Part shown: positions 22,366 to 48,215 of the stretch, one piece after another
Layout of the letters: each line of letters begins with the position of its first letter
How positions within the stretch are numbered: position 1 is the stretch's first letter
The notes under the pieces: generated by a model
Database searches by the model: none
What the model was told of the DNA's origin: nothing
The model's input: the letters and a program-made list of their open reading frames with translations, nothing else
DNA from: Tethya wilhelma
Taxonomy: Eukaryota; Porifera; Demospongiae; Tethyida; Tethyidae
Assembly: GCA_964030475.1 (NCBI GenBank)
Contig: CAXIPT010000001.1
Span: forward strand, 22,412,776-22,476,775
Length of the DNA: 64,000 nt
Direction of reading: 5' to 3'
Position numbers and translations under genes: made by a program

Positions 22366-22366
22366 N

Positions 22367-25300
22367 TTATGGCGTGAAATCAAATTCTCCTACTGTAGTC
22401 AAGATGCTTTTAGACAGAGGAGCAGATGCTACACGAAAAACTAGAGATGACAAAAACATAATCCAGTATGCATATGAATGTCAGAAGGAACCAGACCAGC
22501 TCATTATTATGATGCTGAAAAAAGCACTGGGGATGCCTTCAGCCAATGAACTTGATAAACCCATGCTGGAAGTAGTATTTAGTCTCTTGGTCCCCATTGC
22601 TAGCAACTGGAAATCAATTGGCGTTTTCCTTGGAAAATCAGACAGAGTCTTAATTAACATCAAGGATAACAATGATACTGTGGAAAGCTGCCTTTATGAG
22701 ATGCTCAAACAATGGTTGTCACAAGTTGACCCTCTTCCTACATGGTCATCACTGGCTGAAGCAGTTGAACCAATCAACTCAACTATAGCAGAAGAAATTC
22801 GTCAGAAGTACTACAATCAGGTATGTAAATCAGATGTGTACACCCCTAGCAACAAACATTTCTTGCTATGGGAATACTTGGCCAAAAGAAGGTGTGAGGT
22901 TCTGTGTGATTTACACCATAGCTTTTTATCCCAGATGTAATTGGTACTTCAAAGGAAATTTCAAAGTGATAAATTTGTTATTTTCAAGTGATAAATATGT
23001 TATTGCCATGACAGTAGTAAAGAAGAATAATACACAGCTATATACACATGATACTATAAATTACATCTGGGATAACTATTACTTGTCAGACACTTGTATA
23101 AACCATTGCTAGTGTTCAAACAAGTGACCCTTGGTACCATGTGTAGCAATTAATAGCGTCTTACCCATATAGGCTCTCTCCTTTGACCTTACACTAAAAC
23201 TAAACCCACAGTCCTTGGGCTAAGAGGTTAGAATAAGCAATTGTATTCTCGTATATTTGTTATGTTCAGTTTTCGTTTAACCCTTTCTTATCTCAGTAGT
23301 GTCAAGTAGAGGGCTGAATGTCTGGTTGGCTACAGAGTACAATTAAGTAAGAGAGTCTAGTGGTGGCATTACTTGGGCCTTAGCCAATTCTCTCTTGCAA
23401 ATTTCTACCCTTGTCTGACAATGCATGTAAATGTCCGGGAATAGCTTGACCAAGGGTCACAATAATATTGCATGTGAATCTACATTTGTAGTATGAAGCC
23501 TTATGACATCAAAGGAAAAACTATTACTTTAAATCCCATACTATGTACAGAGTAAACGCTACTAGACCGCAACATCCTGTGGTTGGAAAATAGACCACGG
23601 CTAGGGATAATAGAGCACGGCTGGGCATAATAGAGCACGGCTAGTGATAATAGAGCACGGCTATAGGGATAATAGAGCACAGTTGCAGCAAATACAGTTT
23701 GTTTTAGAGTTAGAAAGCAAATTAAGACTGATACAAGTTCACCTGTCTTTCAATGGAACCACTCCTTTTGCCGCCGCTTCATTGGCCTCTTTCTCTGAAC
23801 CTGGAGCAGCAAACTTAGATGTCAGGCTACTCTTGGCAATGCGCTGACTTGAGCCTCTTCTTTGGAGGGCTATCTAGCTCCAAAACTTTGCTTCAAAAAC
23901 ACAGAACTGTACTCAAATTGCTCAGCCATTCTAGTCAACGAAGAACTGTTAGACTTTTTCATACTACAAACCAGTTAATGCACCGTAAACGCTCGTACTC
24001 TACGTAAATTATTGGGTTCGGGAAAGTTCTCGAATGGCTCATGTAGCACGAGGTGAAGCCTCGTGCTACATGACCTTCTTGAACTTCCCCTCACCGAATA
24101 ATTTACATGGAGTACTCGCGACGGTGCATTAACTAATACGTGTAGGACTCCTTATTTTCAAAGGAAATTCAAATAGAGGAAATAATCAATGTCTGGACAG
24201 TTTTTTTTACTGCACCAATGTACTCCAAGTTCGCCAGTGTTGGGGATATTGATATAGTACTGGTGCATACTTCAGACATGTATACCTCTCACACGTACAT
24301 AGTTGCCAACCTCCAACTCAATGCTAGCGGGACATTAAAACCGTGCTGCGTGAATATGGTAAACACCACACCTCTTTTACGTGGTGACATGCCCCTTTAT
24401 CATGCAATAGTTCAAAGTGCAAAATGCTTCTTAGCGTAGCGATTGCGAACTAGCGCTTCAGAAAGCTCAATATTCGGCTTTTAAAATTGATTTTAGACAT
24501 TATTTGTCACCATAGAGTTGCTGAAAGCTAAATTTTAAGGTAAAAGGCTGCATTTTTCAAGAAAAGCGGGACACTTAACTGCTTTTGGAGCAAGTCGGGA
24601 CACGGCAGGACGGAGGTAAAAAAAGCAGGACTGTCCCGCCAGAATCGGGACAGTTGGCAACTATGCACCTACCCCACAAGCCTATAGTAGGGAACAAGAC
24701 TACTTGCGTATGACACAAAATCTCACTACAGCTGTGCATCCTGCTGAGCTAGCTTTTTATTGCACGTGATCTTTTCAATACTTATGCCCATATTATGGTC
24801 AATGACATGTGTTTCGGAACTTCAGCTAATCTTGCACATATAATGCCAAAAATCCAGAAATTAGTGCGTGTTAAATTATTCACATTTTATTTTTCCGCAT
24901 TATCTATTTTTCGCAGTGTAATGAAAGAATATACGTAGGAACAGGTCGTTTGTTTGTATTTTTTGCGGTAACCTCAAACCACAAATGACAGCGAAATTTT
25001 CCGCATTTACGGTATATACCGTGCTTTATGTGTACATGCATGGTCCACCGGTGTGGGCAACTCTCGCATGTGGAGGCAAAAAAGAAATACAGAATGTGAT
25101 ACAGTAGAACTTTGATTATTTGAACTCTTGATTATGTTGCAGACAGAGCTGAAGACCAAATTTTGGTTAATTAGAACTAATCCAAACAGAGTCCACCCTC
25201 TTTTCTAGTTTGAGGCTTAATCGTGCATGCAGTCACTATTACCGTAAGGTTACTATTAATTGCGGCAACTAATTTTAGCGATTTTAGCAAGAAGCTTGAA

Positions 25301-28300
25301 AATCGCTAAATTAAGTATGCGCAATATTTTATACCGTAATTGAATTTCACTTAATTAGAACAATAATATTAAAAATCGCTAAAATTAATATCCGCCAAAA
25401 GTGCATATATGCCAAACCGCTAAAATTAGTTGCCGCAATTAATAGTAACCTTAAGTTATTCAAGTTTGATCGAAGAAAAATACGCTCTACTCATGATGCT
25501 ATATAAAGAGCTAGTAAAACTATTGTAGCTACTGCTAGAGCAGCAAAAACAAGGATTAATTTATCGCTTTAGTTATCCGAACATTCGGTTTTCCAAACAC
25601 TTAAAATTAACCTGAGAGTGTGTTTCGAGGTGTTCGGATAGGTACTATAGTTGCATGACCCTTAAGTGAGGGGTATATGATGCACCTCCTCTGTGTATTA
25701 TTATTATTGGCTATATAGCTACCAATATGAACAGCCTCAAGGACTAGGGATGATCTGAATCAGAGGAGGTACGACAGCCCCGTGTCATGCTGAGCTGGCA
25801 TTTTTAGTTCACATGTACTTTTTGCTCACAATTTGCACGTGACACTAGGAGCTTAAGTACTGAAATGATCACGTGTGGTAAAAATGCCAGCTCAGCATGA
25901 CAAGGGGCTGTCGTACCTCCTCTGAATCTGAATACATTAAGGTTAGGAGTCAAAGTGTGGATATGAATAATTCATGAACAATGTTGAGCTACATTTAGAA
26001 CATAGATGCCTATATCTATAACACCAGAACTGGAATGTGGGACTCTAATATTCAATTTGGTGTCATTGTGCAAGCATTATGTCAATGTTTTGTTATATAG
26101 ATGCAGGTTGATACACTTGCAGAGGAGCCTGTGTACTTGGAAGACGAAATAAAAGAAATCATTCGAACTCACAAGCCTAAACCGAATAAAAGTGTGAATA
26201 TCAAACCTCTAGTAAAAGCAGTTCAACTGATTCTCCTCACTTGTAATGAGAAAGAAAAGTGGGCTGTTTATGAAAAACTGAAACCACCGATTGCTACATT
26301 GATTAGTGGTGAAGGTGAAACCCTACATAGAGCTCTCCTTCTACCTGAGAGTAACACTGTGATTGGATGTTTTGGTGGATACACAGTTGCAGTTTTGACA
26401 ACAGAACAACGCAAGAAATCAGAACATAAGCTCAAATTGGCTTTGGATTTCTTTCCTAATGCAGTAGCCATTATTGCTGTTGGAGTCGGATATGGAAAGG
26501 ACCGAGACTCTATCAAGTTTGCTGATGTAATGGTTTCAGATCATATTGAAGATGCCTCCCAAGTCTCTGTGTTGCAGAATGATGCCAGTGAGCAAATACG
26601 AGTTGAGCAGAGAGGCCCACGTACTGCAATACAAAACGAACTCCTCAGATATTTCAGAAAGACTGAGGAGTGGGAAACTGAAAATGATTTTAAGGTATCG
26701 AGAGAAGGACGAACTGCTATTGCCAAAGTAGGTACTATTGTGAGCAGTGAAGCATTAATGAGATCAGAAACTTTGAGAAACCAATACATGGGTCTTGCAG
26801 CTCGAACCATTGGAGGAGAAATGGAAGGTTGTGTACTGCTGAACATGGTTAAATGGATGCAAACGCAAGGCCGGTCTCTCAGTGTGATCGTGATCAAAGG
26901 AGTTGCCGACTATGGAGACAACCAAAAGGACAAACGATGGCAGTTCACTGCAGCCAAAGCAGCTACTGATTTCGTTCATTACTGCCTTGAAGAGACTGGA
27001 GGGTTTGGAGCATTTGTTCCTGGTACTAATGAGCAAGGCAAAGGTTGGTCAACTTATATATTATTATACTGTAATTTGGGATAAGTTTAGTCATCACCAA
27101 GTCGGTTGTGTGACTTAAATTTTGCAAAGTAGTGGGTGAGGGTGTGTAACGTAGTGGTACTGTCAAGAAAATTTTGGTCCACCAAAAATTTTTGGCTGAA
27201 GGACCAAAACTCCCAGTGAAAATAGTCCGGGGCCCCCTCTAAAAATTTGAGCCCGGGCAGTTTTTAGCATGCAGCCAGTGATAAATGAAAACAAATTATA
27301 TGCAGTTTATAATCAATGATGCATGCTCACTATCGGAGTTACCTGTCGTGCATAACTACCCGGGCAAAAATTGTCCCGTTATAACACGTTTCTAATGCGT
27401 TAGTATTGTGTTTATAACGCGTGATTGATTTTTAACGCTCTCATTTTAAATGACGACCCTTACCCTCTATATTCATTTGGAGGGTAATTGTCGTCATTTA
27501 AAATGAGAGCGTTAAAAATCAATCACACGTTATAAACGCAATACTAACACATTAGAAACGCGTTATAACGGGACAATTTTTGCCCGGGTGAGTTTCAATC
27601 AGAAAATCTTGTTCATAATATGCCCAAAAACATGCTCAAGAAGAGTATTGAGGCTAAATTTATCTATATACAAAGTATAAGTCAGTAGCCCTTCTCAGCT
27701 CCTTCTGTGTTCTGTCAAGTAAAAACATTTAGCTTTCAGTCAACTCTAAATAATAACAAATGGGCGTAATCAGCACGTGTGGCCTCAAAGCTAAGCGCTC
27801 AGAGATGCTGAAAAGCCTCAGATCTCGGGAACTACAGGTTTTGTTTAATAATACATATAATTTTTTCTATTATTTTACCTTAAAGGCGCAGTCGCACGGA
27901 AGTAAATTTACGTGACGTAATGAAGCCGTATTTTGCACTTAATTCCTGCGCGCAGAATATAGACCAGCGCTAATATGAGTCTCCACGCTCTTCAAATACA
28001 GCCAATGCTCATGAAAAGCTCTAGTGTTACTCTTCGCTAGTTTGCTAGCCTACTCAGCTACTGTTTTTCCTAACTGCACAGGTTTTCAACGCTAAATCTA
28101 CGCGTTCTCGATCGCAAACACGTGGACAAATAATATGCGATTCTCCCTAACTGCGCGAAATAATTACATTCCAATGACGTATTTCAACCAATCAGATTGA
28201 GTTTTTGATTTTTGGGTCCAGAATTCAAAAAAAATGGCGCCGTAATTACTTCCGTGCGACTGCGCCTTTAATTGGTATGCCCCTTTAGAAGACTAGAGCT

Positions 28301-30634
28301 GCCGTTAATTCTTGAGATATTCAGTGAACAAAAAAACTCTACAGATAGCAGTCGTTTCGCCAGCGTACCGGAAGTCCAATGGTCCCCATACAAATTTATT
28401 TGCACGGGAAGTAAAAAATGGCACCAACTCTGCTAGCTATAGCTAATTAGATATTCAAGCCAAAATTTTTGCCTCCAAGATTCAGCTGCAGATACAAATG
28501 TAGTTTGTACTGAAACTAGCATCCTTTAGTTACTCATCTTCAAGGTTTATATAGCCTAGACTTGATTTCTACGGTGATTTAGGAGGCCTCAATGACAACC
28601 TACCTACAGCAACAAAACCCGTGGAGAAAAATTTTCTGACCAAGCTGTTGACACAGTTTCTCTTGTACTAAGAATAGATGTACTGTAGAATCTTTTTTTG
28701 CAGTCTTGCGGACTTGTTCCCATGGAAAGGAGCCATGCAATAAACGGTTCAAAATTTCTGTATCACAATGTACTGAAATAGGTAAGGGTCATTACAAAAC
28801 TTGTTGAATTATTAAAAGTTGTTCATAAAACAGCAGTGTGATCATTGTGCAATGAACAATTGACCTACAAAATATCAATACCGAGTTGCAGAATGAATAT
28901 AATAGTGCTGCATATAAAGAAATGTATATTAATCTTGCATGGTGAAGCTGTTTTCAGCGAAGAAAACATGCATCACAGATTTGCTTACATGAATCAATGA
29001 AGGCACCGATGGTGCATAAGCCTCGGCACACTCAACTAGCTAGCACAGTTACATGCATACATTCTGTAAAAGAGTGTATCATAACTCAGTATTAAGAACT
29101 TATCCGCCACCTGGCCCAGCCTGGCATATAGGCCAGAGAGAGCCTTCAGCGGAGTTGTTCACAATACACTTTATACATATGGCCCAGGTTAGCCACATAA
29201 CTAACTATGGTAAAGCAGCAAATGTCACAGATGATGAACCAGATGAGCTTTGCTATGATTATTGGAATGCTCACCTGCTGTCAGATAGTGAAGTCTAACT
29301 ATAAATTTGAACCACTGATGCACTGAAAATGTATGAATACCCTATATGCTTACATAGAAAGCAGGCCAACTCCTGTCTGTCTTGCCAAACAACACTGACT
29401 AACAGCAACAGCAGCTATAACTGAATCTCTGCTGTGCTTCTATTCAACACGAATCAAGATAACGCACACCAAATCAGTAGGCGTGGTCTCGAAGCTAAGT
29501 GCTCAAAGAAGCACAAAAGCCTCAAATCTCAGCAACTACAGTGTTTTGGAAAGAAAAATATTATATATTATGTTTACAAGATCATTAACGTAAGTACCAT
29601 CAATTTTGTCGCTATAGAGCTGCCTTTCTTGAGATTTCGATGGAACAGACAGACAGACAGACAAAACGACTACCGTAATCCTCTGCACGTGCTACGCACG
29701 TGCCGAGGCTTAATAAATGAGCACTTTTCTTACAATAATCCATACATAGATACAAAGACTTGGTGGAGAAATTTTTCAGACAAACATTAGGCTTGCAGTT
29801 TTCATAAGCAGATGCATGGGTAGCTGCTTAACAATATACTCAAGTTCTATCCTGTTCTCAAGGTTTTCATGGATGCAAGCGCTAGACTAATACTACTACT
29901 CTTAGGCTAGGGTGACTCACAAAAAGTTCAACAGGCATGCAAAAAATATAGTGCACGTACTATGGGCTTTTTATCACTCTACGTGTTGAAAAATAATATC
30001 TGTAACGTTCAATGAAGTTTCCTTGGCTTTCTCTGCTCTAGAAATAGCATAAGGGATGCTTTTGTGACACTACTTGACAATTGTGATTTTAGCTCGATTT
30101 TCCCTACAAAAATGACGTAATGCTGCAAATAAAATTGCGCAAATTTAATGCTGGCGAAACGACTGATAGAATTAAAGACAGACAGACAGACATACAAACG
30201 ACTACCGTAACCCTTGGTGCGCATGGGCAAGGGTTAATAATGCCACAATTTTAACACCATGCACATTTATAATCATTGCAGAACAAGTGGTTAAAATCGA
30301 CGTCAGTGATGCTTCTCACATTACAAGATACCTGCAGACACTGACCAACATTCAGCTGAGGGCCTTTGGTGTAGCATTGGGCTTGTCACCTTATGATGTT
30401 CACAATTACCCCAACGAAGGCCTCTGTATGACGATAGTACTGGCATGGTTGAGACGGGAGTACCAGGTCAATAAGGTGTTGGAGGAGTACCCCTTTAGTA
30501 GCAATCTCACTTGGAATGTGCTGGCTGCAATACTGGAAAATGAGGGACAGAACCACATCGCCATGACTATACGTAAGGATAAAGGAGCTACACTAAAGAC
30601 TAAAGGTAATCCTCCTAAACCAAGCCTTCCTTAA
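22367..30634 (+). CDS. Gene A: ankyrin end - Death - nucleoside phosphorylase-like - Death (5' partial)
   Basis: Exons 22367-22820, 26101-27043 and 30282-30634 join in phase; a symmetric 78-nt exon 28704-28781 may be included. Exon 1 starts mid-ankyrin after N 22366 (VVKMLLDRGADA) and then carries a Death domain (IASNWKSIGVFLGKSDRV ... TWSSLAEAVEPI...AEEIRQKYY). Exon 2 is a PNP_UDP_1-like domain: GCFGGYTVAVLTT, IIAVGVGYGKDR, GGEMEGCVLLNM (ribose-binding Glu) and VIKGVADYGDNQKDKRWQ (the position of the catalytic Asp in nucleosidases/phosphorylases). The last exon is a second Death-like domain (LGLSPYDVHNYPNEG ... WNVLAAILENEGQNHIAMTI) and ends KPSLP. Exons 1-2 are paralogous to gene B at 43366-45470. 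Likely cytosolic innate-immune adaptor or effector. Death, Death and phosphorylase assignments are from motifs; enzyme specificity is unknown. Confidence 0.8.
23585..23683. repeat. Minisatellite, about 22-bp unit
   Basis: Five tandem copies of a unit like AATAGAGCACGGCTAGGGAT with small variations, in the first intron of gene A. Confidence 0.85.
23974..24132. mobile_element. MITE-like foldback, 159 bp
   Basis: Inverted repeat with ends GTTAATGCACCGT ... ACGGTGCATTAAC and a central hairpin around ATGTAGCACGAGG/CCTCGTGCTACAT. No coding capacity. Confidence 0.75.
25246..25452. mobile_element. MITE-like foldback, about 207 bp
   Basis: Arms AAGGTTACTATTAATTGCGG ... CCGCAATTAATAGTAACCTT, with inner arms rich in GCTAAAATTAG. 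No coding capacity. Lies in intron 1 of gene A. Confidence 0.8.
25760..25925. mobile_element. MITE-like foldback, about 166 bp
   Basis: Arms CAGAGGAGGTACGACAGCCC ... GGGCTGTCGTACCTCCTCTG, followed inward by TGCTGAGCTGGCATTTTT and its complement. No coding capacity. Confidence 0.8.
27359..27588. mobile_element. MITE-like foldback, 230 bp
   Basis: Nearly perfect long arms beginning CCCGGGCAAAAATTGTCCCG and ending with the complement. The arms meet at a short loop near ACCCTCTATATTCATTTGGAG. Such long stems can give small RNAs if transcribed. Lies in an intron of gene A. Confidence 0.8.
27761..28345. repeat. Dispersed repeat, copy split by a TTAA element
   Basis: 27761-27880 (GTGGCCTCAAAGCTAAGCGC ... 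AAGCCTCAGATCTC) and 28271-28345 (AGAGCTGCCGTTAATTCTTG...) align with 29452-29640, where the two parts are joined without the intervening 27884-28267 element. This shows the foldback inserted into an older repeat. Confidence 0.65.
27884..28267. mobile_element. MITE flanked by TTAA, inserted in a dispersed repeat
   Basis: 384 bp with arms AGGCGCAGTCGCACGGAAGT ... the complement ending GCGCCT, directly flanked by TTAA at 27880-27883 and 28268-28271. TTAA duplication is characteristic of piggyBac-type insertion. The terminal bases are not the usual CCC, so the superfamily is open. Confidence 0.75.
28704..28781 (+). CDS. Putative 26-aa cysteine-containing cassette exon of gene A
   Basis: Bounded by TTTTTTTGCAG and GTAAGG. 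The 78-nt exon has the phase that fits between the phosphorylase exon and the last Death exon (1-nt carry-over on both sides), and is open only in that frame: RTCSHGKEPCNKRFKISVSQC. It can be included or skipped without frame change. No homologous exon was seen in gene B. Confidence 0.45.
   Translation, partial: SCGLVPMERSHAINGSKFLYHNVLK
29452..30240. repeat. Dispersed repeat copies with (GACA)n and CGACTACCGTAA ends
   Basis: 29452-29712 and 30174-30240 share a 3' part GACAGACAGACAGACA..ACGACTACCGTAAYCC...TTAATAA. Recurrent short ends with a simple tetranucleotide suggest a SINE-like or other non-autonomous element. No RNA polymerase III boxes were identified with confidence. Confidence 0.5.
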
Positions 30635-32767: not shown

Positions 32768-33106
32768 GAACGAGTTTCTTTGCCAGCTGATTGCAAAAAT
32801 GGCAGAAGTCGGAAAGACTCCATCTGTGACGTCACATAGTGAAGTAAATTGCTGAGCTGGCCAAATTGCAAAGAGGAGCTGTCAGCCTATGCATGCATAC
32901 ATAGTTACCTTTCACTGCCCAGCTATTTACTATGCAGAAGCCTGTATACTTGCATGCATCTAGCAGTAAACATATATAAGTATACTTCATACACAAGCCA
33001 GGAGCGTGGCGAGCAAAGCGAGCCACACTCCTTGTATATACTATAATTGCATGGGTTTGAATTAATTATATTGATATTAATATTAATATAATCATTTATA
33101 ATGCAG

Positions 33107-36100
33107 ATATTATCGACAATTTTAAGCACTATGAAGCATATCAACAGGCTCTGGAGAGAGGTACAGATGTGTCAATTAGGTATTTTAAACTCCTCTTTTC
33201 TGGTCCTCCACGGGTTGGCAAAACATCAGCAAGACGTCGACTTGTCGGAGAAATCTTGAACCTTGACACAGAACAGGTTAAAGTGAGTCTAAGCACTGGA
33301 GCAGCAGAAAGCAGTCATATCATAGTTCAGCTTGAGGAACACAAACATGTGACTACCCTGTTGGTTCCGAAAGCTAAAAATGATCCTTATAAGTGGGTGC
33401 CTGTTACAACCTTTGGCAATAAGGGAAAAATTGATCTAGACAATGAATTGATTTTGCTTTACAAGTTTATATACGGACAACTCCCTGCTGAAACAAGTAA
33501 TCCCAACCTTCCCGAAGAACCTGACAGGTCATCTAAAGATGAAGAACATGTCTCACAGCAAGATAGTGTAAAATTGCAAGAAGCTATAGAAGACAACAAT
33601 ACAACAATACAAAGTCCACCTAATTACGTCACTACACAACAAGAACCAAGTTGGAAACGGATCAATGAAGAAGTATTCATTGCCTTCAATAAAGTGTTGA
33701 AATCTGAAAATCGTCACGAACATCTTGATGAATTACTCAAGGGAACATCTCTAATAAACATGATTGATGTTGGTGGCCAGCCAGCATTCTTAGAAATGCT
33801 TCCTGTATTGACAGTCGGACCAGCAATGTACCTTGTGTTTTTAAATTTATTCCAAGAGCTTAAGAGGAGTTATGAAATTCGGTATGTAGACAGTGCACGT
33901 GAGATTTTGCTAAATACCTGGTCATATTCAATTCAGGAGGTCATCTTTCAAATCCTTTCAAGTATTGTTGCATTCTCTCGCATTGAAGCAAGTAAGGACT
34001 TCCCAGATTCTTCACAGGCTGTTCTTATTGTTGGCACACATAAAGACAAACTGTCTAGTCCTACTAGTGATATTCTTAAAAAAGACCAAGCTCTCCGTAA
34101 AGACTTGGAACACATTTTGATGAATGACAGCGAACTCTTGTGTAAAGCATCAGATTCTGAAGAAAGTCTCATATTTGCTATTGACAACATGACTGGTGAC
34201 CAAACTGAAGTTGAAACCATGCGTAAACGACTGGAAACTATTATTGAAGAGAAATTTAAAAAGCACAAAATTCCTGCTGCCTGGCTAATGTTTAACATTT
34301 TACTTCGGAAAATTGGCATGCGCGTCATGCCCCTTGAACAGTGTGAAGACATTGCAATAAAGCTGAAAATGTTTGCAGATATGAAAAATGCTTTATGGTT
34401 TTTACATCACATAGTGGGAAGCTTAATGTATTTTCCACAAGTTGAAAAACTGAAAAACTTGGTTATCTGTGATGCACAGTTTGTATTTGATTGTGTTACG
34501 TCATTAATTGTTCAAACCTTCAGCACTAGTGACACTGCAAGCAAGCAATTTGCAGAAACAGGTCAATTTAGTTCTGAAGATATTGAGAAAGCACTCAAAG
34601 GAAATAGTGATGAGTATCTTTCTCCTGACAAGCTTGTTTGTCTTCTTGAGTATCTCAACATTATTACTCCCATTCAAGCTCCTCCTCATAGCCTCACATC
34701 AACCAAGTTGTATTTCTTCCCAGCCATATTAAGGTGTGCAACAAATGAACAATTACACGAATTCTACCAAGCCAAGAGGCCAAATGACCCTCCTCCTCTC
34801 ATGATCCACTTCAAGTTTGGTTTTGTTCCAATGGGTTTATTCTGTGCAATGATAGCCAGGCTTGTGAGCCTAATCCATTCCCAGAGATTGGGATGGGTAC
34901 AAGACTGTGATAGTAGGGATTATCAGAGACCTTGGTACAAAAATAGAGTTTCATTCCGTCTTGGTCAAGAAGCTGCAGAATGTGTTACACTCATATCACA
35001 CCCAAAGCGATTTGAAGTTCATATTAGACAAAGTGAACACAAAGAGGCTGATCGTATTGTTGAAGTTTGTCAAAGTGTTTTCCTGACAGTTTGTGATACT
35101 CTTGATGCAGTCATATCACAAATAAAGCATTTGAATGTAACAAGTTTTAACACAACAGAACCAATTTACCAGCTTGGATTTAAATGTCCTCGGCATTCAC
35201 ATTTAAACAGTGATGATTTAGTACTTAACAAGGCCAAGTCTAATCCTTTAAAGTCTCCACAACTTTTGTGGTATGATTTTCTTGAAAATAACTCTTTCTT
35301 CCAGTGTCTTCACAGTGACGAGGAACTATCAAAGAATGAATTATTTAATCTCAAGTACCTCAACTGTTTGCCATGGTTTGGTTTGTCAAACCTTAATAAT
35401 CTGAGACTGTTACTAATCACGAAACAACCCGAGAGCCAGTCAATAATATACGGAAATAAACTTTCTTTTAAAGTAGAGGTTTCTGCTGTTGGAACCAAGC
35501 TAAATGAAGACTCATTCCAATACCAATGGTTTAAGGACAGCACTGAAGTTACCCTTGAGAGCCATCCCTACTGCAGAGGAGCTCAGCAATCCACAATATG
35601 TATCGATGCTGTTCTTGCACAGTATGAGGGTAGCTACAAGTGTATCATATCAGTGGAAGGACAGAGTGAGGATGGAAGCCAATTTAAAGAAGTTGTACAT
35701 TCTGATAATGCCTCACTTAACGTTGGTAAGTATAATTGTACCATGGTTGTAGTTAATTGACCAATCCTATTTTTGATCCAATCCGAACAATAGTATAAGA
35801 AAGCATTTCCCCCTGGGTATATGATTGTCAACACCCCCTCTACCTAGAAGCTATTTATGACACAGCTACAGTTGTAGACCACTCCCTCTATTCTGTGAAC
35901 AGCTAATTTGGTTGGTTCATGGTACAAATCAGTTACATCACTGACTCGGTTCTGCACTGTGTGGTTTACACAACCTCTCGCCTCTGGCCCTCGATGTATA
36001 AATACCACATAGAAAACTGCACTTCGTGATGTAACCTACCGTATAGCGGGTAAACTTAGCGAGAATTAAATTTGGCGAATTAGCAAATTATTCTTCAAAT

Positions 36101-39100
36101 CACCAAATTAAAAATCACCAAACAGTTTAATACACACGTGCGCCCATATAAACTATGCAGCATAAGGAATTGAATCGCCAATAATCCCAAAATAGGAATT
36201 TGCCAAATTTTAAGCCCGCCAAATTTACCCGCTATATGGTATGTACATATACACTTCAATAATATTTATAAACTTAACAAATTACTGGTTAAAACTTTAT
36301 CTAGGTGATTATCACCCAATATACCGTATAGCTAGAAATTTTCAAAGAGTATAAATTTCGCTGTTTTTGCGGATCGTCGGCGATTTGCGAAAATTTCCAG
36401 ATCGTATATTGCAATATAATTTATGGGTGGGGCTGATCGATCCTCGAAAATTAAATCACAAAAAGTTTGGCGATTGCCTTTCCCCGAAAATTTTATTCCT
36501 CGAAAATTTATACGGTATAATTGTTTGTTTCCTTAGTGCATGTGTAACAATTGTATCATTCATGTATATATGCAGTTACTCCACTGTCTTGGCTGTTACA
36601 TGGATGTACTAAGAATACTATGACCCCTTCTGAGCGTAACCAACTCCTCCCACTAGTACCGCCAAAACTTGAAGTGGTTGATCACAAAGGGAAAATGATC
36701 CTAGGACCAGATGAGGGAATGACTATCAATGTCCCAGCAGGAGCAGTGGCAGAGAATGATTTCATTTGTGTACAAACCCAATCCTTTGTCCCATCGTCAA
36801 ACAATACCATCTCTCTTCCAAAGAGACTGAAATTGCTAAGTCCTATTTATGGCATCTCAACTTTTTCCAAGAAATTTCTAAACAAAGTTCAGCTATCAAT
36901 GTTACATTATGGAAAGCTTAACTCACCAAAAGATGTTTCTGAAGTAATGTTCCTTCACTGTACTGATAAAGAACCACCATATAGATTTGTAAAGCTACCA
37001 GGTGGAGTGTTTGATTTTAATTCTCGTACTGGGACAGTTTCCCTTCAATCATTTTGCAAAGTAGCTCAAGCTGGACCCGAAAGTAAGACTAGTAATAAAT
37101 AATAATCATTATTGTATAAGTATGACCAGCTGTGTGCATAAAGCGTTTTCCTGTGATGATTTAACTCAATGCAGGTATTTGTGAGGAATACAATGTCTAT
37201 TTCATCCACCCTATCCCAGCACTGAATCCAAAATGTATGTTTGCTATGTTCAGTGCTTGTTACAGGCACAATGCATTTCTTAAGGTGAGATTATATAGTA
37301 TTGTCTTATGTATGAAGTGCCTAACATATGCATGGACAAATGTTTCCTTGTAGCATCTAAAGGGTGAAATGGAAACTACATTTCCAGATGGAAAACCTTT
37401 CCTTGCTGATTTTACACATGTGGAGCTGGCTCAGGATTCCAAAGGGTTTGAGCTCATCATTCCTCATAAATCTATTGAGGAACAAGGATACCAAGTCAAG
37501 ATCATGGGACGCAGGACAACTAAGGTATCTATTATAATATAAATGCTAATAGGTACCGTATTATACATAATATTGGTAGCAATAAAATTTGGCAGTTGCA
37601 TGCATGCCAGAATAAAAGCTGTTTCAGGATGCTATAGCTCTCTGCTACACGTGCTATATTATGATAGTAGTGGTGACAGAATACCCAGGCTGAAACTGCA
37701 TGGGTATATATAGAAATGCCTAATACATGCATATCTGATTGGATCATAATAATTATAGATCCCACTTAAGGACCTGCCTCCCCAGCCAGCTCCTGAGTCA
37801 GATGCCTCCCCTGGCTACCCAAGCACCTGTCCTCTTCCTAATCGTCTGTTACAAGTTAAGTCACTGCACAAGTACTCAATGATAGAGGATGATCTCGAGT
37901 GTGAGTTGAGAGTGGGTGGCATCAAAGGTGAAGAAGTGTTTGTGCTAAGAGCCAACCCTCCGGTTACTAAAAAAAGAAACAGAAACAGAGATCATAGTGA
38001 TACATCATCCCAACCTAAAGTACCAGAGTAAGTCTAGCCCTTATTATTCTCATACATCTAGTCCTTGGTGTTGCTGTACAGGAGATCTCACGATCAAGAT
38101 AGGGATAAAGATCGTGATAGGGAACATGGTGGTGGGAGGGGCAGTTATATTTCGTACAAGAAACAGAGCAGCAGAAACGAAGGTCACATTTCAACCTCTG
38201 AATCAACAGAGAGTGAGAGTGATAGTGGTGGTTTGTCATCTTTACCAAAATTGTCAAAGTGTACTACTGAAAGATCAGACTTTAAGTATGTTGTTTTATT
38301 GTACTCTTGTATATACATGTGTATACATTTATAACACTGTAAGAATTTTAATTTTAATGATACATTGTGTGCACATTATTAATTGTAATCCACAATAATG
38401 TATACAGGAGCTCTCGCTGGCAAGACAGAGATAGAGACTGTGATAGGGAGCATCGTAGTGTAAGGGGCAATCATAATCTGAGTCTGTACAAGAAGCAAAG
38501 CAGCAGAAGCAGAGGTTACAAGTCAAGGTCACCCTCTGAGTCATCAGAGAGTGAGAGTAATTGTTTGTCATCCTCACCAAAAGAATCTACCTCTAGAAAA
38601 TCAAACTTTAAGTAAGTTATTCCAGTTACTCTTCTACATGTACAACAGTGTAGAAATTAATAGTAAAATTAACAAGTGTGTATGTTTTTACTGATCTACA
38701 ATAACATAGGAGCTCTCACTGGCAAGATAGTTATTATAGTGATCTTGACGGTGACAGGGAGCATGGTGGTGGGAGAGGTAGGCGTAGTTCAAGTCCCTAT
38801 GGAGAACAGAGTAGCAAGAACAGGTCACCCTCTGAGTCAGCTGAGAGTGAGAATGATGGTGATTGTTTGTCATCCTCACCAAAGCCACCAAAGCATACCT
38901 CTAAAAGATTGAAGTAGGTTGATTCATGTACTGCACATGTGCATGCATGCATGTATACGTATGGTCTAAGATTGTAAGAATATATTAGTAATGTGTTTTA
39001 TGCATGTCTATAATGTAGGAGTTCTCTCTGGAAAGATAGAGGTAGAGACTGTGATAGGGAGCATCGTAGTGGGAGGGTCAGTCATAGTCTGAGTCCCTAC

Positions 39101-40987
39101 GAGGATCGGAGCAGCAAGAGGAGTAAGAAAAGCAACAGACAACGACGTCGAAGTGTTTCACCCTCATTTTCAAAGAAGAAAGACCATCCTCACGAGGCAC
39201 ATTCTAAGAGGAGTAAACATAGAAAGAAATATTCTTTAGAATCTTCTCTTGCTCCATCCTCCTCTTCTGAACAATCGGACAAAAGCAGTAAAGAGGTTTG
39301 CAAACTCATTGTAGCATAATATATTAGAACCTCCAAATAACAGTCAAGTTGAGAACACGACTTTTGTCCTTTGTAGAGAGCTTGTCCTCTTTCAGTGCCA
39401 TGGTAAATCTGACCATGCAGTATACACTCTTATGTGGTGTTAGCTTCCTGAGTGCATACTTTCTCATTCTATGCAATACAGTTGATCGATGGCTCTGTTT
39501 TCTTTCACTGATGACCGATGCAAAGCCCATGCATTTAATTATGTAACAGAGAATTAACATATCCCGGCCTGCATCAATTTTGCTCGTGGAGTCCAGATGA
39601 TCATGAAAGTCTCATTTATATGGTGTATATCTCCATGCAAGCATTGTGTGTCACAATATCCATGCAGAATTTGAGCATTCAGTGGATATATCATATATGC
39701 TCTAAACAGCATAGCAATATAGCTATATACATGTAAAACAGATTCTAATGGAAGATTTGTGTGCCTGGTACACATGTAGTTTGGTACACCAGCAAGGCAG
39801 CTAGCTTTCACCATGTCTAGGCAGTTAATTTCATGTGCATGCATCAGTTCAATTGGTAATTCCCCAAATCATAAATTTAAGCAAATAGAAAACTATGCAT
39901 GACTGTCAATCAAATCATGCAGGGGGATTACTGTCTGTATTATTTTATACAGGAACCATCCGGGAAATTTGTTAGTGATTTCCAAAGAGCCACTCCTCTT
40001 GCGGGGTCAGAAATTGATCCTTCTGCTCCTGCAATTTGGAAACTGAAAGAGATCCATAGCAAACTGAATGGAGAAGGCATTGTAATTGCTATAATTGACA
40101 ATGATGTCAACTCTGATCATGAAGCATTCTCTAATGCTTGCGATGAAAACCGATTGTTTGGACGTGGATTCAAGAAAGGCAAGAAGGAGGAAGAAGAGAA
40201 GGAGAGAAAGAAGAAAGATGAATGGGGTGCACCTGAGAGAGGTGAGAAGGCTAGCCACGGAACTATGGCTGCTTTTGTTGCTGGAGGAGAGCCATTTGGT
40301 GATGTCAAGAGTGGAGGGGTTGCCCCTAAATCAACTCTATGGATTTATTCAGTTGGAGCTACGTATGACAAAGAGTCCATTATCAATGCTCTGAAGCATC
40401 TCATCAAAATGAAGAAGAAACGCAATGCACCCGATATCATTTCAATGTCATTTGGCTTCGATTATACCCCTGGTGATTCAAAGCGGGATTTAATGGCCAC
40501 CCACATTCAGACTCTCAGGCAACTAGGAGTAGTGATGGTAGCTGCTGCTGGCAACAGTGGAGTGTTTGAAGGAGGTGTTCAATTTCCTGCTGGTGAACCA
40601 GAAGTGATTTGTGTCGGAGCTCACAAACAACTGGGAGGAGTGATGGATCTCAGTCCTCCAATGGATCGTATTGATTGCTTTGCCCCTGGGGAAGCTGTAT
40701 GGCACCCAGGTGCAACTGGTAGTGTATCGTCACTCGTTAGTAGTGGCACTTCTTGTGCTGCTCCAGCCATTGCTGGACTAATAGCTCTCTTACTTCAATT
40801 CTCAAACAAGCATGTGACGAATGAAACAGAGAAGAAGGAATATCGAGATCCTGGCACTTTGAAACGGTTGTTCAAAGATAAACTTAGAAAAAGAGGAAAT
40901 GAAATTGTGCTTGCTCCAGTGGAATACTTGAAACTTTCCATACTCGAGTGTGATGAAACGAAACGATTGGGAAGAGAGCAGGATTAA
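33107..40987 (+). CDS. Gene C: ROCO-like GTPase - Ig-like - ZU5 - RS-rich - subtilisin S8 protease (5' partial)
   Basis: Ten exons in phase: 33107-35725, 36576-37082, 37175-37284, 37354-37524, 37759-38027, 38082-38285, 38408-38611, 38710-38913, 39019-39295, 39953-40987; about 1866 aa without the missing 5' exon(s). Numbering from 33107: P-loop GPPRVGKTS about 33-41, switch DVGGQPAF at 221, base-recognition THKD near 311, then a COR-like region (IPAAWLMFNILLRKIG..). An Ig-like domain lies at about 766-873 (YQWFKDSTEV, YEGSYKCII). ZU5 follows (ILGPDEGMTINVPAGAV), then a segment that may be UPA-like. Four RS/RD-rich exons follow. The C-terminus is a subtilase with Asp1571 (AIIDND), His1624 (SHGTMAAF), AAAGNSG and Ser1789 (SSGTSCAAP), so the triad is intact. 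No signal peptide is visible, so a cytosolic GTP-regulated protease is inferred. The exon joins are predictions; two separate genes sharing the region are the main alternative. Confidence 0.78.
36037..36241. mobile_element. MITE of TACCGTATAGC family, copy 2
   Basis: Ends TACCGTATAGCGGGTAAACT and ...TTTACCCGCTATATGGTA, 205 bp, in the gene C intron between the Ig and ZU5 exons. Confidence 0.8.
36321..36518. mobile_element. MITE of TACCGTATAGC family, copy 3
   Basis: Ends ATACCGTATAGCTAGAAATT and ...AAAATTTATACGGTAT, about 198 bp, 80 bp after copy 2 in the same intron. The arms are more diverged. Confidence 0.7.
38082..39295 (+). repeat. Tandem array of RS-type exons in gene C (three of exactly 204 nt)
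   Basis: Exons 38082-38285, 38408-38611 and 38710-38913 are each 204 nt, share the same phase and the same layout: ERSHDQDRDKDRDREH-like start, YKKQSSR middle, SESxESES core, LSSxPK, then basic end. A fourth exon, 39019-39295, starts the same way and extends into KKSNRQRRRSVSP and a Ser-rich tail. The introns are short (98-122 nt) and similar. Each whole exon can be skipped in frame. Confidence 0.85.
39259..40358 (+). repeat. Segment shared with gene B (S8 module), copy 1
   Basis: From the end of the last RS exon through the 657-nt intron into the S8 exon, this matches 47128-48215 closely, including the intron. It is a recent segmental duplication carrying the protease module. Confidence 0.85.
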
Positions 40988-41438
40988 TTTATAGTAATAT
41001 TTGAAGTTGAGTTGTGTGCGTATACAATATGTGTACTACTGAATTAGCTATGATTGTGTTTTGTGATAGTTTAAACTGAATGGGTAGCCCTAGCTATGAT
41101 GATAGTATTGATACAAACTTCAATTCAATCTAGTAAGAATATTAATATTGATTACTATCCCAGACATAAAGTAATGTGTGTATTCAAGTTTTGTTTGTTG
41201 TGGTCATCTGGTAGGAGGTCTCTGGCTTTTGCAGCTCTTGCCGGCCTGGATATTGATGTGCATGATGTTGTTGATATTCAATTGTGTCATTCATTACTAG
41301 TTAGTATGTTATTAATAATTTTTGTTTACACATTATTGCATGTTAATTTGTATATACATGATGGTGCATCCGTTTTCATGTCTGGTAATGGTCAATACGT
41401 TCATATACTCTTTGTTGTTCAAGTAGATTTCTAATTAG
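40988..41438. other. Spacer between genes C and B
   Basis: 450 bp. The ankyrin exon of gene B starts at 41439 with 2 nt of a split codon, so a 5' exon must exist, but none could be placed. A stretch at 41215-41301 (RSLAFAALAGLDIDVHDVV) between AG and GT looks exon-like but its phase does not fit. Confidence 0.4.
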
Positions 41439-44400
41439 TGAGCACTGCTTGTAACAAGGCATGGTTTGATGCTAGCTCGACTGCAACACTACTTGGAATA
41501 CTTGGTAACATCAGTATGGAAAAGAAAATAATCCTATCACAAAGAGAAGCTGTGAGTGCTGCTGCTACAAATGGAGACGTGAAAAGTGTTTTAGCCATCT
41601 TGGAAGAGACAAGAATAGACGTCAACTTCGTCCACCCTAAGTTGTCCTTTTCCCGTTCATTTCCTCCCCCACTCATTGCAGCCTGCCAAGCTAATCAACC
41701 CGAGGTGGTAAAGGCTCTTCTAAAACGTGAAGATGTGAACATTGCCGTTGAATATCGTGTTAAGACTCCTCTATCTACTGCTGCTGGTGGTGGGTATGTT
41801 GAAATCATGAATCTTTTGTTTGCTCATGGTGCTAGTGTAGGCAATGACTTGGTGGGAACTAGAAACCCATTGTTTTGTGCCGTACAAAATAACCAGTACG
41901 AAGCTACAGAGCTACTTCTGAAAATGGGTGCCAAACCAAATCCACTGGTGTTGCCAACTGGTCACAAGACTCCCCTAATGATTGCAGCACACAATGGTTT
42001 CTATACTATAGTTGAACTACTACTAAACAATGGTGCCAATCTGGAACCCCCTGACAATTCAAACCAACTATCCGCTCTAACTCTAGCTTGTTCTAATGGA
42101 CACACAGATTGTGTTAGGTTGCTGATAGAACGTGGAGCTGACCTCAATGCCAAGAGTAACTATGCCGATGGTACCCCACTAACATGTGCGGTTGATAATC
42201 ACCACATTCAATGCACACAACTATTGCTTGCCCTGGAAAATAAAAAAAGAATTGATGTCAACCAGCCAAAGACAGTACTCATCCGTCTAGAAATAAAACA
42301 GCTTTAATGATTGCTAGTGAAAAGGGGCATCTAGAGGAAGTCCAGCTGCTACTCAAGTGTAAAGCAAATGTGAGTCTCGAGGGAAACAGACACACTGCTC
42401 TTTACTTGGCTTGTAAAGGAAACCATTTCAAAATAGCAAAACTGTTGATTGAGAATGGTGCAGATGTAAATCAGATTCCAGATATTGCCCACCATACTTT
42501 ACAAGCAGCCATTAGAAACAGTCACTCTGATATAGCTTGTCTCATGATACAAAGTGGAGTTAGCATAGAAGAATTCCGAGATCAGATTCCACTGATAAGT
42601 GCTCTTAATAGAAAGGACAAACAGGTAGTAGAAGAACTTCTTCATCATGGAGCACAGATCGACATCAGGGGATTGTCACAAGCAATACAGTCAAAGGACT
42701 CGACTATCATCAGTCTCCTCCTAGAGAAAGCAAATAAAGACACAGTGTGTACAATGAATGAAAATCTGGTACAGGCAGCTGTTGATGGAGACCATGAGTT
42801 TGCTAAAGTAGTTCTACCACACATACACGATATCAATGTCCAACTCAAATCAGGCAATACAGCCTTGATGGAAGCAGCCAGACGTGGTCAAGAAGAACAC
42901 ATGAAGCTGTTTTTAACACATTCTGCTCAAGTCAACATACAAAATGGAAATGGAGACACTGCCTTAATGACTGCAAGCCAAGAAGGTCACACAAAGTGTG
43001 TTGAACTGCTACTAAAGCAAAAAGATATCGATGTTAACCTACGTCCTGGTAATACAGTTTTGATTGAGGCAGCCAAACATGGTCAAGAAGACCATATAAA
43101 ATTGTTTCTGGAGCATTCTGCTCAAATTAACATACAAAATGAAACTGGAGACACTGCGTTAATGATGGCCAGCCAAGGAGGTCACACAAAGTGTGTTGAA
43201 CTGCTACTGGAACAGAAAGATGTTGACATCAACCTACAGAACAACAAGGAGTGTACAGCCCTCATGTTAGCCAGTGAGAAGGGACGTGTCAGTGTGGTGG
43301 AACTATTGCTAAGGAACAATGCCAAACTTGAAATTTTTGACACCAGAGGATGCTCAGCATTGTTTTATGGTGTGAAATCAAATTCTCCTTCTGTAGTCAA
43401 GATGCTTTTAGACAGAGGAGCAGATGCTACACGAAAAACCCTGGATAGTAAAAACACAATTCAGTTTGTATACGAGTGTCACAAGGAACCTAACCCACGT
43501 ATTATTAAGATGCTGAAAGAAGCAATGGAAAGGGTTTCGATATCTCCTGAGAAGGAGAACGAACCAACTCTGCAAGAATCGTATCGGCTCTTGTTCCTTT
43601 TGGCTAGTCACTGGTATAACATCGGAGTTATCCTTGGTATTCCAGATGGAATCTTGAAGAACATCAAGGCCAGCTATGATAACGAAGTAGAAAGCTGCCT
43701 TCGTGAGATGCTAACAAAATGGTTGTCACGTGTTGACCCTCCTCCTACATGGTCATCACTTGCTACAGCAGTAGAATATTTTGATGAAAGAAAGGCGAAA
43801 GAAATTCGTCAAGAGTACTGTGGCATTGAGGTTGGTCCAGCCAGTGAGGAACAGAAGAAGAAAGTCAGAGAAAAGCTAAAAGTCTCTGAACAAGCATTGC
43901 TTCACATGGAAGATAATAAAAGTCACCTAGGAAATTCTAAGAAACCTGCTTCCAGACTTGAAAAACTAGTTCATCAAGAAGTATCTGCTGCCTCTCAAGA
44001 TGTAAGTTTATAAATTTTAGGTCCTATAGAAGCCATGCCTAAGTTTTGGTATGGGAATAAAATACCTTTGACCAGCCAGAATGGGGTGAGGTTTCTTATC
44101 ATGGGTTTGTACTACACCTTGTGGCAAGACACTTCATAGGCATGCAAGTGTACTTGAATTTTGTGTGGCTTGCAATTGTAAACATATGCAGTTACCTAGC
44201 AACTAATTTTTTTTTTTAAAGGAAGCTGTAGAGTAGCCTCATCAACCAGGCCCTCCCCGCGATGCTTATTGCTAAGTCCGATGCTTATTGCTAAGTCCGT
44301 ACTTAGCAATAAGCATCACGGGGAGGGCCTGGTTTACAAGGCTAGCTGTAGAGGTCAGTAGCCTGTAAGGGGTGCCACATACTGAGGTAGTCCTGCATGA

Positions 44401-47400
44401 TTGACTCTGTATGAGTGCTGGGGTGATTGGCAATGGCATGTATGTGCATGTATGTCTTCCGTAATGTTAATAATTATAAAATTAAGTGGGTACATGTATT
44501 AAAAATTATACAGGATGAGGGACCTAGCACTCCTCCTGGAAAAAAGCCATGGCCAAAAATGGAGTCTGAGGAGCAGCCTTTGTACAAATTTAGTGATTTA
44601 GGAGCTCGTAAACCTGAGCCCAATAAAAATGTAAATCCCAGGCCTCTAATTGAATCTGTTCAACTGATTCTGCTCAATTGTAACGAGAATGAAAAGCAGG
44701 CCGTGTACGGAAAGCTGAAACCACCAAAGATTAAAGGTAAAACCCTTAAACGGCCTCTCCTTCTTTCCACAGATCTTGGTGCAGATCACTCAGACTCACC
44801 AAAGAAAAGTGTGACAGTCATCGGAACATTTGGTGGATACACAGTTGCTGTTGTGACGACCAAACAAGGCAAGAAATCGGAAGCTGGACTCAGAGAGGCT
44901 TTAGATTTTTTCCCTAATGTAACAACCATCATTGCAGTTGGAATTGGGTATGGAAGAGATCGAAAATCTATCAAGTTTGCTGATGTAATGGTTTCAGATC
45001 ACATTTTTGATGCTTCCCAAGTCACTGTTGATGAATCAGATGCTTGTGGGACGATTAAAATTACACCACGATCCTCATGTACTGCAGTAAATACCGAGCT
45101 CCTTAAGTGTTTTGGAACAATGACCAAAGAATGGGAAATTGAAAGTAAATTTGTGGTATCTAGAGAAGGACGAATTGCACAAGCTAAAGTAGGTACTGTT
45201 GTGAGCCGTGAAGAATTAATAAGATCTGAAAATTGGAAAAAGAAGTTCATGGATCTTGCACCTCAGGCCATTGGAGGCGAAATGGAAGGTTCCTCGCTGT
45301 TGAACATGGTTGAGGACATGGAAAGCAAGCGTCGACCTCTTGGTGTGATTGTGATCAGAGGAGTTGCCGACTATGGAGACAACCAAAAGGACAAGCGATG
45401 GCAGTTCACTGCAGCCAAAGCAGCTACTGATTTCGTCCATTACTGCCTTGAGAAAACTGGACATTCTGAGGTAAGTCACTCAAACTTTCTAGCTGACAGT
45501 GTTGAGTCATTTATTTTTGCTGTCATTTTTCAGGTACAAGATGATAATGTGACTATACCAGACCAGTCTGGCCGTTTGCAAGAAGTTGGTAAGCCATCCT
45601 GGCTTCTAGGTTCCCTGAGTACACGCACCAACCTCAATTGAGTATTGTTTACTAAACAATCAGTTTATGGTAATGGCTAGTCACTACCCATGGTCATTTG
45701 CATGTGGTTACAGTGAATATGACCTTATGCATATTGTGTTTATAAGCTTGCAGACTGAGGTGGTTACAACTTGTGTCTCTAGAGATCACCATTATAGCTA
45801 TTGTAGTCTTATAGGTTATACAACTAGGCCAATCAGCCGAGTCAACAAAATTTCTACTTAACCACATTAAATTTACATGACTTTCATTCTTTAAATTATT
45901 GGAGTGAGCCTGAGCCAGCCCTATAGGAATGTTAAAACATGAAGAAGTGTAATACATGCATGCACCAAACCGGAAATAGCTCAAATTACACAAAAAACTA
46001 AATATCCTGGCCTTAGTCTTACGGTATTTCTATTTACATGCACGCACACAAAATCAAAGAACGTTGAAAGCTAGCCTCGTGGGGATGAGACTATGCTGGA
46101 TGTGCACTTACAGATCGATAAGTCTTTCAAATTAGTGTCTTTAGTCTGACAGCACTACCACTCACAGTCAGCTCAGCCTAGCTATATAGCTGCTCGTTTC
46201 TTCACTGTCGCAGCCTCGTTCCCAGACGAATGGACAGCTACACAGACAGATTAAACTATAGCCCGGGTAGAATCAGTTCAATATAAATTTTGCTTATAAC
46301 AAGATAGATAATCATGCTCTTATCTACTAATCGCATGGTCCTGTGAGTGAAGATTTTTCGCTCAGGCTTGCCCAACGATGCTTTCATCTAACTAGTTTAA
46401 AGTTGCTTATCTCAATTCCTATTCCCAGAGCACCACCACCCCCCATCTCCTAGCAACTCTAATCCTTCATCTCCAGTGGTTCCTTCCCACCATCAAAGTC
46501 ACCTCCACACTAAACCAAAGACACTCTCACCAGCTGCACCTCCTCACCTCCAAACAGTAAGTGAAGAGGTATAAGCATGTATGAATACATAACTATACAA
46601 TTCACTTTTAGTTGTATTTTCCAAATTTAAAAATTATTATACAGCACTATGATATACCCCTATAGCTGGTAGCCATGGCCCCTGAAAGACATGTCTAGTC
46701 CATAGGTATTAATTTTTCTATTGCAATTACCATAGAAACAGAAAGGAAAATAAATAGGCATTTTTGCAAATTTTGGGGATTTCGGATGGCAGTGATTCGA
46801 AAAAATCTGAGAATCCCACTGCATAGAATGGTAATGGCGAGCAAGACAATCCGGGGCATGAAAATTTAGATCCACGAAATTTGTTTCCCTCTGAAATAGT
46901 GCCCATCCACTGCCCGATATATTTTATGGCTTCCTGGTACCGATATACATGTCACTATCTCTGACCACATTTAGGAATCATCCATGCTATTTGTTGGTGA
47001 TTTCCAAAGAACTACTCGAGTATCTCTTACCGAGTCTGGAAGTCACAGGTCAACCTCTGAATCAAGAGAGAGTGAGAGTGATAGTGATGAGTTGTCATCC
47101 TTACCAAAATTGTCAAAGCGTACATTGTCCTCTTCTGAACAATCGGATAAAAGCAGCAAAGAGGTTTGCAAACTCATTGTATAGCATAATATAATTATTA
47201 GAACCTCCAAATAACAGTCAAGTTGAGAACACGACTTTTGTCCTTTGTATAGAGCTTGTCCTCTTTCAGTGCCATGGTAATGTAGCCTAAATCTGACCAT
47301 GCAGTATACACTCTTATGTGGTGTTAACTTCCTGGGTGCTTTCTCATTCTATGCAATATAGTTGATCGATGGCTCTGTTTTCTTTCACTGATGACTGATG

Positions 47401-48215
47401 CAAAGCCCATGCATGTAATTATTATAATTATGTAACAGAGAATTAACATATCCCGGCCTGCATCAATTTTGCTAGTGGAGTCCAGATGACCATGAAAGTC
47501 TCATTTATATGGTGTATATCTCCATGCAAGCATTGTTTGTCACAATATCTATGCAGAATTTGAGCATTCAGTGGATATATCATATATGCTCTAAACAGCA
47601 TAGCAATGTAGCTACATGTAAAACAGATTCTAATGGAAGATTTGTGTGCCTGGTACACATGTAGTTTGGTACACCAGCAAGGCAGCTAGCTTTCACCATG
47701 TCTAGGCAGTTAATTTCATGTGCATGCATCAGTTCAATTGGTAATTCCCCAAATCATAAATTTAAGCTAATAGAAAACTATGCATGACTGTCAATCAAAT
47801 CATGCAGGGGGATTACTGTCTATTTTATTATGTACAGGAACCATCCGGGAAATTTGTTAGTGATTTCCAAAGAGCCACTCCTCTTGCAGGGTCAGGAATT
47901 GATCCTTCTGCTCCTGCAATTTGGAAACTGAAAGAGATCCATAGCAAACTGAATGGAGAAGGCATTGTAATTGCTATAATTGACAATGGTGTCAACTATG
48001 ATCATAAAGCGTTCTCCAATGCTCTTGCTGAAAACCGATTGTTAGGACGTGGATTCATGAAAGGCAAGATCACTGATGAATGGGGTGCACCTGAGAGAGG
48101 TGAGAAGCCTAGCCATGGAACTATGGCTGCTTTTGTTGCTGGAGGAGAGCCATTTGGTAATGTCAAGAGTGGAGGGGTTGCCCCTAAATCAACTCTATGG
48201 ATTTATTCAGTTGGA
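41439..48215 (+). CDS. Gene B: ankyrin repeats - Death - nucleoside phosphorylase-like - linker - S8 protease (partial, one frameshift)
   Basis: Exons 41439-44001, 44514-45470, 45534-45588, 46429-46556, 46975-47163, 47838-48215 (cut by N 48216). More than 15 ankyrin units (TPLMIAAHNGFYTIVELLL, TALMTASQEGHTKCVELLL) are followed by a Death domain (ASHWYNIGVILGIPDGI ... TWSSLATAVEYF) and a PNP_UDP_1-like domain with GTFGGYTVAVVTT, GVGYG-equivalent GIGYGRDR, GGEMEGSSLLNM and RGVADYGDNQ. A His/Pro/Ser linker exon, a short RS exon, and the start of a subtilase with Asp (AIIDNGV) and His (SHGTMAAF) follow; the Ser part lies beyond the gap. Ankyrin repeats suggest ligand binding, Death signalling, and two enzyme domains as effectors. 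The reading frame shifts by one base at about 42267-42271 (VNQPK then DSTHPSRNKTALM); the repeat continues cleanly afterwards, so an indel error or a recent mutation is likely. Confidence 0.8.
44234..44344. mobile_element. MITE, TAG...CTA ends, 9-bp target duplication
   Basis: 111-bp foldback in gene B intron 1. It starts TAGCCTCATCAACCAGGCCC and ends with GGGCCTGGTTTACAAGGCTA. It is flanked by the perfect 9-bp direct repeat GCTGTAGAG (44225-44233, 44345-44353). The interior has a tandem GATGCTTATTGCTAAGTCC. Confidence 0.85.
47128..48215 (+). repeat. Segment shared with gene C (S8 module), copy 2
   Basis: Matches 39259-40358 with small indels (for example the charged insert KKEEEEKERKKK of gene C is absent here) and base changes, so the copies have diverged and are not an assembly echo. 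Confidence 0.85.

Follow-up and report, generated by a model that had tools for sequence, protein, structure and literature searches.

Do the ankyrin, Death, ROCO-like GTPase, Ig, ZU5, phosphorylase-like (PNP_UDP_1, here PNP) and subtilase (S8) modules crowded into one stretch of the genome of the sponge Tethya wilhelma belong to a family of proteins that couple sensors to enzymes, or to ordinary neighboring genes? The original prediction, made from the letters of that stretch (the window, 64,000 nucleotides), was that genes of one strand join recognition, switch and signaling modules to enzymes in what may be an immune pathway undescribed in animals. We addressed the question in the window and across the 124.6 Mb genome (204 contigs).

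Architecture of the three genes

A Pfam search of ten window ORFs, comparison with paralogs and inspection of motifs confirmed the predicted cluster, with the ankyrin, Death, ROC-COR, Ig, ZU5, PNP and S8 exons all on the forward strand. Exons were joined by a script that selects donors and acceptors so that the phases agree and takes the best chain without a null, so that phase consistency alone is weak evidence for a model. The modeled features are as follows:

22367..22820, + strand: gene 1 exon with the last ankyrin repeat and Death (Pfam Death 23.1 bits); donor phase 0
26107..27084, + strand: gene 1 PNP exon, predicted MTAN-like nucleosidase, EMEG and GVADYGD intact
30282..30605, + strand: Death-like exon, phase 1/1, homologous to the one that follows ZU5 in paralogs L061 and L062
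33107..35725, + strand: gene 2 exon with ROC GTPase, COR and Ig (COR-A 28.7 bits; Ig; G1/G3/G4 motifs)
36576..37082, + strand: gene 2 ZU5 exon (Pfam ZU5 38.0 bits once spliced)
37175-37284, 37354-37524 and ~37762 or 37771 to 38027, + strand: three post-ZU5 exons of gene 2, phases consistent, in the UPA position
38082..39295, + strand: four Arg/Ser-rich exons of gene 2, of which the first three share one phase and a length of exactly 204 nt
39953..40987, + strand: gene 2 Peptidase S8 exon (Pfam), ending in a stop; acceptor score 7.2, phase 0; catalytic D, H, N and S
41516..42255, + strand: gene 3 start and first ankyrin repeats (Pfam Ank)
42280..44001, + strand: gene 3 ankyrin repeats and Death (Pfam Ank; Death 22.5 bits)
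44514..45470, + strand: gene 3 PNP exon, E46, E244 and D272 intact (numbering of the 303 aa query)
45534-45588, 46429-46556 and 46975-47163, + strand: three linker exons of gene 3, a phase-consistent chain
47838..48215, + strand: start of the gene 3 S8 exon (Pfam S8), cut by the join at 48216; acceptor phase 0

The cluster ends, 22367 and 48215, coincide with single-N assembly joins (join positions 22366 and 48216), which is why gene 1 is without its 5' end and gene 3 without its 3' end; a third such join, at 31190, falls inside the intron that separates the Death-like exon from the ROC exon. The joins are rough, to judge by the duplicated ends, exact or nearly so, at 8621 and 17015/18933. Here 14710-17014 is duplicated exactly (100%) by 18934-21238, and 6355-8619 nearly so (99.8%) by 8622-10886, each pair ending at a single-N join; these duplications are probably unmerged contig ends, and the methyltransferase ORFs at 16116-16769 and 20340-20993 are therefore probably one gene.

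Gene 1 is, to judge by its exons, an ankyrin-Death-PNP gene with the 5' end missing. Its Death domain (ORF 22311-22937) scores 23.1 bits against a Pfam cut-off of 22.6, and its PNP ORF (26101-27081), to which Pfam gave no match of its own, is 66% identical to the PNP copy of gene 3; the gene may end at 27084 or splice onward from 27043. The gene 3 chain runs from ankyrin-Death through PNP and the three linker exons into S8 as far as the join at 48216. It has many ankyrin repeats and a Death domain slightly below the same cut-off (22.5 bits) at 41435-44010, with one frame break in the ankyrin region (~42256-42290, where ORFs overlap), followed by PNP_UDP_1 (33.9 bits in ORF 44427-45638) and the cut S8 copy (36.9 bits in ORF 47766-48245).

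The spliced frame of gene 2 is open for 1970 aa, with its sole stop at the end, in a phase-consistent chain of the Death-like exon, ROC-COR-Ig, ZU5, three exons, four Arg/Ser-rich exons and S8. Its ROC domain carries GPPRVGKT, DVGGQ and VGTHKD, which we take to be the G1, G3 and G4 GTPase motifs. COR-A reaches 28.7 bits in ORF 33061-35757, under the Pfam cut-off of 35.3 (Ig is likewise under its cut-off), and is over the cut-off in P0121, P0122 and L018; the gene 2 ROC-COR region is 29% identical over 519 aa to that of P0121. By its G motifs and COR, gene 2 is accordingly classed as a predicted ROCO protein. ZU5 scores 30.3 bits in the single ORF 36548-37099, and the three following exons share 51% identity with their counterparts in the ZU5 paralogs L061 and L062, which supports this part of the model; Pfam matched ZU5 alone there and recognized no UPA domain in gene 2. 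Proteins of the UNC5/PIDD type have the order ZU5-UPA-Death, and the two ROC-Ig-ZU5 paralogs are alike in ZU5, conserved region and a terminal Death-like exon without a Pfam name, whereas in gene 2 the Arg/Ser-rich exons and S8 occupy the place of that terminal exon.

The Death-like exon at 30282..30605, either the N-terminal exon of gene 2 or the C-terminal exon of gene 1, is 36% and 33% identical to those of L061 and L062, respectively. Pfam gave nothing significant for it, BLAST gave no alignment with the Death domain of L032, and a fold search with a single-sequence model (pLDDT 67.8) placed the TNFR1 Death domain first at a non-significant E of 3.4.

The S8 ORF of gene 2 (39881-40984) scores 106.7 bits and has the D/H/S triad together with the oxyanion Asn, by which it is a putative subtilase. 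The predicted arrangement on one strand thus stood, and what changed is the status of the S8 exons, which in the models close genes 2 and 3 at the 3' side and do not form separate genes. As a weak donor (score -1.5) precedes S8 in both genes, these fusions in the window are likely rather than proved.

Fusions and copy number across the genome

The reading in which the S8, ROCO-ZU5 and PNP genes of the window are ordinary neighbors, and the spliced fusions artefacts of chaining exons over a tandem array, draws on that weak donor, an in-frame ATG upstream of the S8 acceptor, the single-N joins that cut the region and the paralogs L061 and L062, which run to their Death-like exon and show no continuation into S8 within the stretch read. 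We nevertheless consider it unlikely in the light of the S8 loci elsewhere in the genome. Of 20 distinct S8 exons, 16 have phase 0 at their best-scoring acceptor (by rows, 17 of 22, since two exons appear twice), a count that drew on 20 of the 30 S8 loci read for their partners. Among these 30, ankyrin repeats lie in the S8 ORF itself at seven (L033-L035, L037-L039 and L049, seen by eye, and by Pfam for L037 only), COR lies directly upstream at four (L030, L040, L041 and L043, with BLAST alone as the basis in the first three) and Death lies just upstream at two (L032 and L036), so that COR or Death immediately precedes S8 at six loci. Pfam, run on ten partner ORFs, gave no match in L030, L040, L041, L055, L046 or the window Death-like exon. 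L055, a further COR-S8 candidate, reached a BLAST E of 0.19 at best, which was unconvincing, and it is excluded from the counts. The S8 pair L040/L041 has a dN/dS of 1.01.

Fusions within single ORFs elsewhere in the genome also argue against chance neighbors, as they require no splice model. ROC-COR and PNP share one stop-free ORF of 1426 aa, which begins with three repeats that are helical by eye and without a Pfam name; ankyrin, S8 and ROC-COR share a stop-free ORF of 1187 aa, in which Pfam confirmed S8 and ankyrin; and COR-A is over the Pfam cut-off in both. Ankyrin and S8 are joined in a stop-free ORF of 1455 aa and in others, and a 953 aa ankyrin-Death ORF runs into ROC and, after one frame break, is followed by a 998 aa ROC-COR-PNP ORF. 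ROC-COR and PNP further occur in the same ORF at L015, L017 and L019 and, on a separate database contig, in P0123 (1071 aa; 62% identical over the 981 aa searched), COR is found in the ORF upstream of PNP at L018 and L020, and an ankyrin-Death ORF precedes PNP at L010. The PNP of P0121 is below the Pfam listing and was recognized by homology search and PADLOC. At three places a ROC match precedes an enzyme module, by 0.5 kb for S8 at C3:340051-343657, by ~3 kb for S8 at C3:1434987-1441106 (-) and by ~3 kb for PNP at C3:2220073-2226211. Together with the splice models, the fusions outside the window support the predicted passage from sensor, adaptor or switch to enzyme.

Genome-wide we obtained 23 matched stretches for PNP, 41 for S8 and at least 61 for ROC-COR (51 of 207 candidates scored), in addition to 20 for ZU5; these are stretches and not genes, as one gene may yield several. 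Copy numbers of this order for PNP, S8 and ROC-COR imply that the window cluster is not a chance array. Two tandem PNP exons with matching exon starts (L007 and L011, G000 C1:19.88 Mb) are perhaps one gene with two PNP modules, and at L026 a PNP ORF is followed by an NB-ARC ORF on the same strand.

The enzyme modules and their relatives

GGEMEG and GVADYGD occur in both window PNP copies, and D, H, N and S are all present in the full window S8 copy, as had been predicted. We scored in PNP the Glu, EME and Asp positions, which we take to be the catalytic residues of MTAN. Of 19 genome copies that span them, 15 retain these residues, and 24 of 26 full-length S8 copies retain theirs, consistent with enzymes that are probably active in most copies. 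In the C6 ROCO-PNP clade (L017, L019 and L020) the second Glu of EME is Q, and in P0123 it is V; by these replacements the four may have an altered substrate or have lost activity. The PNP copies are under purifying selection, with dN/dS of 0.13-0.57 in those 51 of 91 pairs whose dS is under 1.5 (14 of 23 copies).

By its modeled fold the PNP module is of the nucleosidase (MTAN-like) type: all 50 Foldseek matches listed, and the best 46 matches listed by VIA-align, are MTA/SAH nucleosidases or futalosine hydrolase. The same matches would suit a regulated housekeeping MTA/SAH-type nucleosidase which, along with an intracellular protease, is carried on signaling scaffolds with no role in conflict. 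Such a role appears improbable to us, because a housekeeping enzyme would hardly be expected in tens of diverging copies whose partners are shuffled and because the bacterial relatives lie in STAND proteins. When GTDB contigs were scanned with the PNP alignment, using patterns that demand the conserved motifs, 11 loci emerged, and Pfam was run on the host ORFs of ten of them (L085 being left out). PNP_UDP_1 was found in all ten and a STAND NTPase in five, namely NACHT in three (L078-L080) and nSTAND6 in two that are much alike (L082 and L083); L075 combines PNP with TPRs, and Pfam detected no STAND domain in the remaining four. In PADLOC the effector model PN-superfamily is matched by both window copies (E 4.5e-12 and 9.8e-13) and, among ten match-bearing bacterial ORFs scanned, by nine (all but L082; L083 left out). 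At L077:3384-10518 a bacterial PNP ORF has a weak SIR2 match, under the cut-off, and adjoins ORFs that match viperin and HEAT-repeat defense models; this is possibly a defense locus.

For S8, a search of other genomes for relatives in long ORFs (653-2077 aa) gave three bacterial-type subtilases, none of them listed with ankyrin or COR. Fungal NLRs with S8 adjoin gasdermin genes in the relevant passages of PMC9815663; a search for gasdermin as a candidate S8 substrate gave no match, and its control likewise matched nowhere.

Proposed function and relation to known immune proteins

We regard a sensor-effector family as well supported by the single-ORF fusions, the kept catalytic residues, the predicted MTAN-like fold and the bacterial relatives in STAND proteins, and we think it probable, with some reserve, that this is an expanded, exon-shuffled family of intracellular receptor-effector proteins with a role in immunity. 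Ankyrin arrays would form the sensing part, Death-like domains would serve recruitment or oligomerization, the ROC-COR GTPase, where present, would act as the switch, and the output would come from the enzyme module, usually C-terminal. Recognition would thus lead to oligomerization and turn the enzyme on, whereupon PNP might hydrolyze an adenine nucleoside or nucleotide (ATP or dATP by analogy) and S8 might cleave a target protein, and the loss of nucleotide or the proteolysis could result in cell death or a block to the invader. That the same chemistry of sensor, switch and effector serves self/non-self (allo-) recognition instead of microbial defense is very unlikely in our estimate, although the arrays are tandem and diverging and some fungal NLRs, only a small fraction according to passages of PMC9815663, control incompatibility.

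Rousset 2023 is said to concern immune ATP nucleosidases. PNP_UDP is called an ATP nucleosidase or hydrolase in immunity in passages of PMC10197012 and PMC12881547. The PNP_UDP_1 (PF01048) effectors of coral, fungal and bacterial STAND/NLR proteins share with the present set the MTAN-like fold, the catalytic residues and the fusion to sensor or adaptor; here, by contrast, the enzyme is usually C-terminal, ATP cleavage is putative and the switch is ROC-COR, or Death/ankyrin alone, and not NACHT. With E values of up to 1 admitted, Pfam found neither NACHT nor NB-ARC in the ten ORFs of the window, a set that does not extend to the 5' end of gene 1 or the 3' end of gene 3. The claim that animals have no described pathway of this kind is not borne out as it stands and is partly wrong. 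Coral NLRs with a PNP effector at the N terminus have been published, as has a PNP effector with a Death domain in a sponge (both cited in passages of PMC4986451), whereas an expanded animal ROCO family with an exchanged enzyme module, nucleosidase or subtilase, looks new. Word searches found no report of ROCO-PNP or ROCO-S8 and no match for Roc-COR paired with Peptidase S8 or for PNP_UDP_1 paired with a Death domain in animals; such a search, with the subscription literature mostly outside it, is weak evidence of absence, since most of these searches missed the sponge Death-PNP report. The main text of a sponge NLR survey has no PNP, phosphorylase or ROCO (PMC12909245).

The window genes share the receptor-to-enzyme design of bacterial and fungal immunity, arranged here partly around a ROCO switch; enzymes fused to ROCO, and two enzymes within one gene, make a new form of this known design. 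Passages of PMC8195603 describe two sets of proteins that come close to it. Bacterial AP-GTPase(ROC)-COR conflict proteins with LRRs, which have at least 24 variable C-terminal domains, show the same repeat sensor, ROC-COR switch, exchangeable effector and several paralogs; they differ from the present proteins, which are animal, use ankyrin, Ig, ZU5 and Death, and have PNP nucleosidase and S8 subtilase as effectors. The Amphimedon Death-like/TRADD-N proteins, with C termini of ankyrin or PNPase, share a sponge expansion, a Death-like adaptor, ankyrin and PNPase, whereas ROC-COR and S8 belong to the present set.

We suggest, as a tentative and less than even prospect, that in this animal lineage ROCO GTPases have become a second class of NLR-like receptor, with ROC-COR taking the place of NACHT and nucleosidase and subtilase swapped by exon shuffling, some proteins bearing both and thereby combining nucleotide depletion with protease-driven cell death. 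ROCO proteins such as LRRK2 and DAPK have been studied mostly as kinases. If true, an animal family that retains the ROC-COR switch and ends in a nucleosidase or protease would link the ROCO proteins of animals with the ROC-COR conflict proteins of bacteria, and through two easily assayed enzymes the switch-to-effector mechanism could be put to direct test.

Two further ORFs of the window may be recorded. A choline/ethanolamine kinase ORF (Pfam 65.1 bits) lies on the reverse strand at 58840-59544, and an ORF at 13571-14449, for which a Pfam match is absent, contains SAWTPCWYC, reminiscent of the PCxxC motif of AID/APOBEC.
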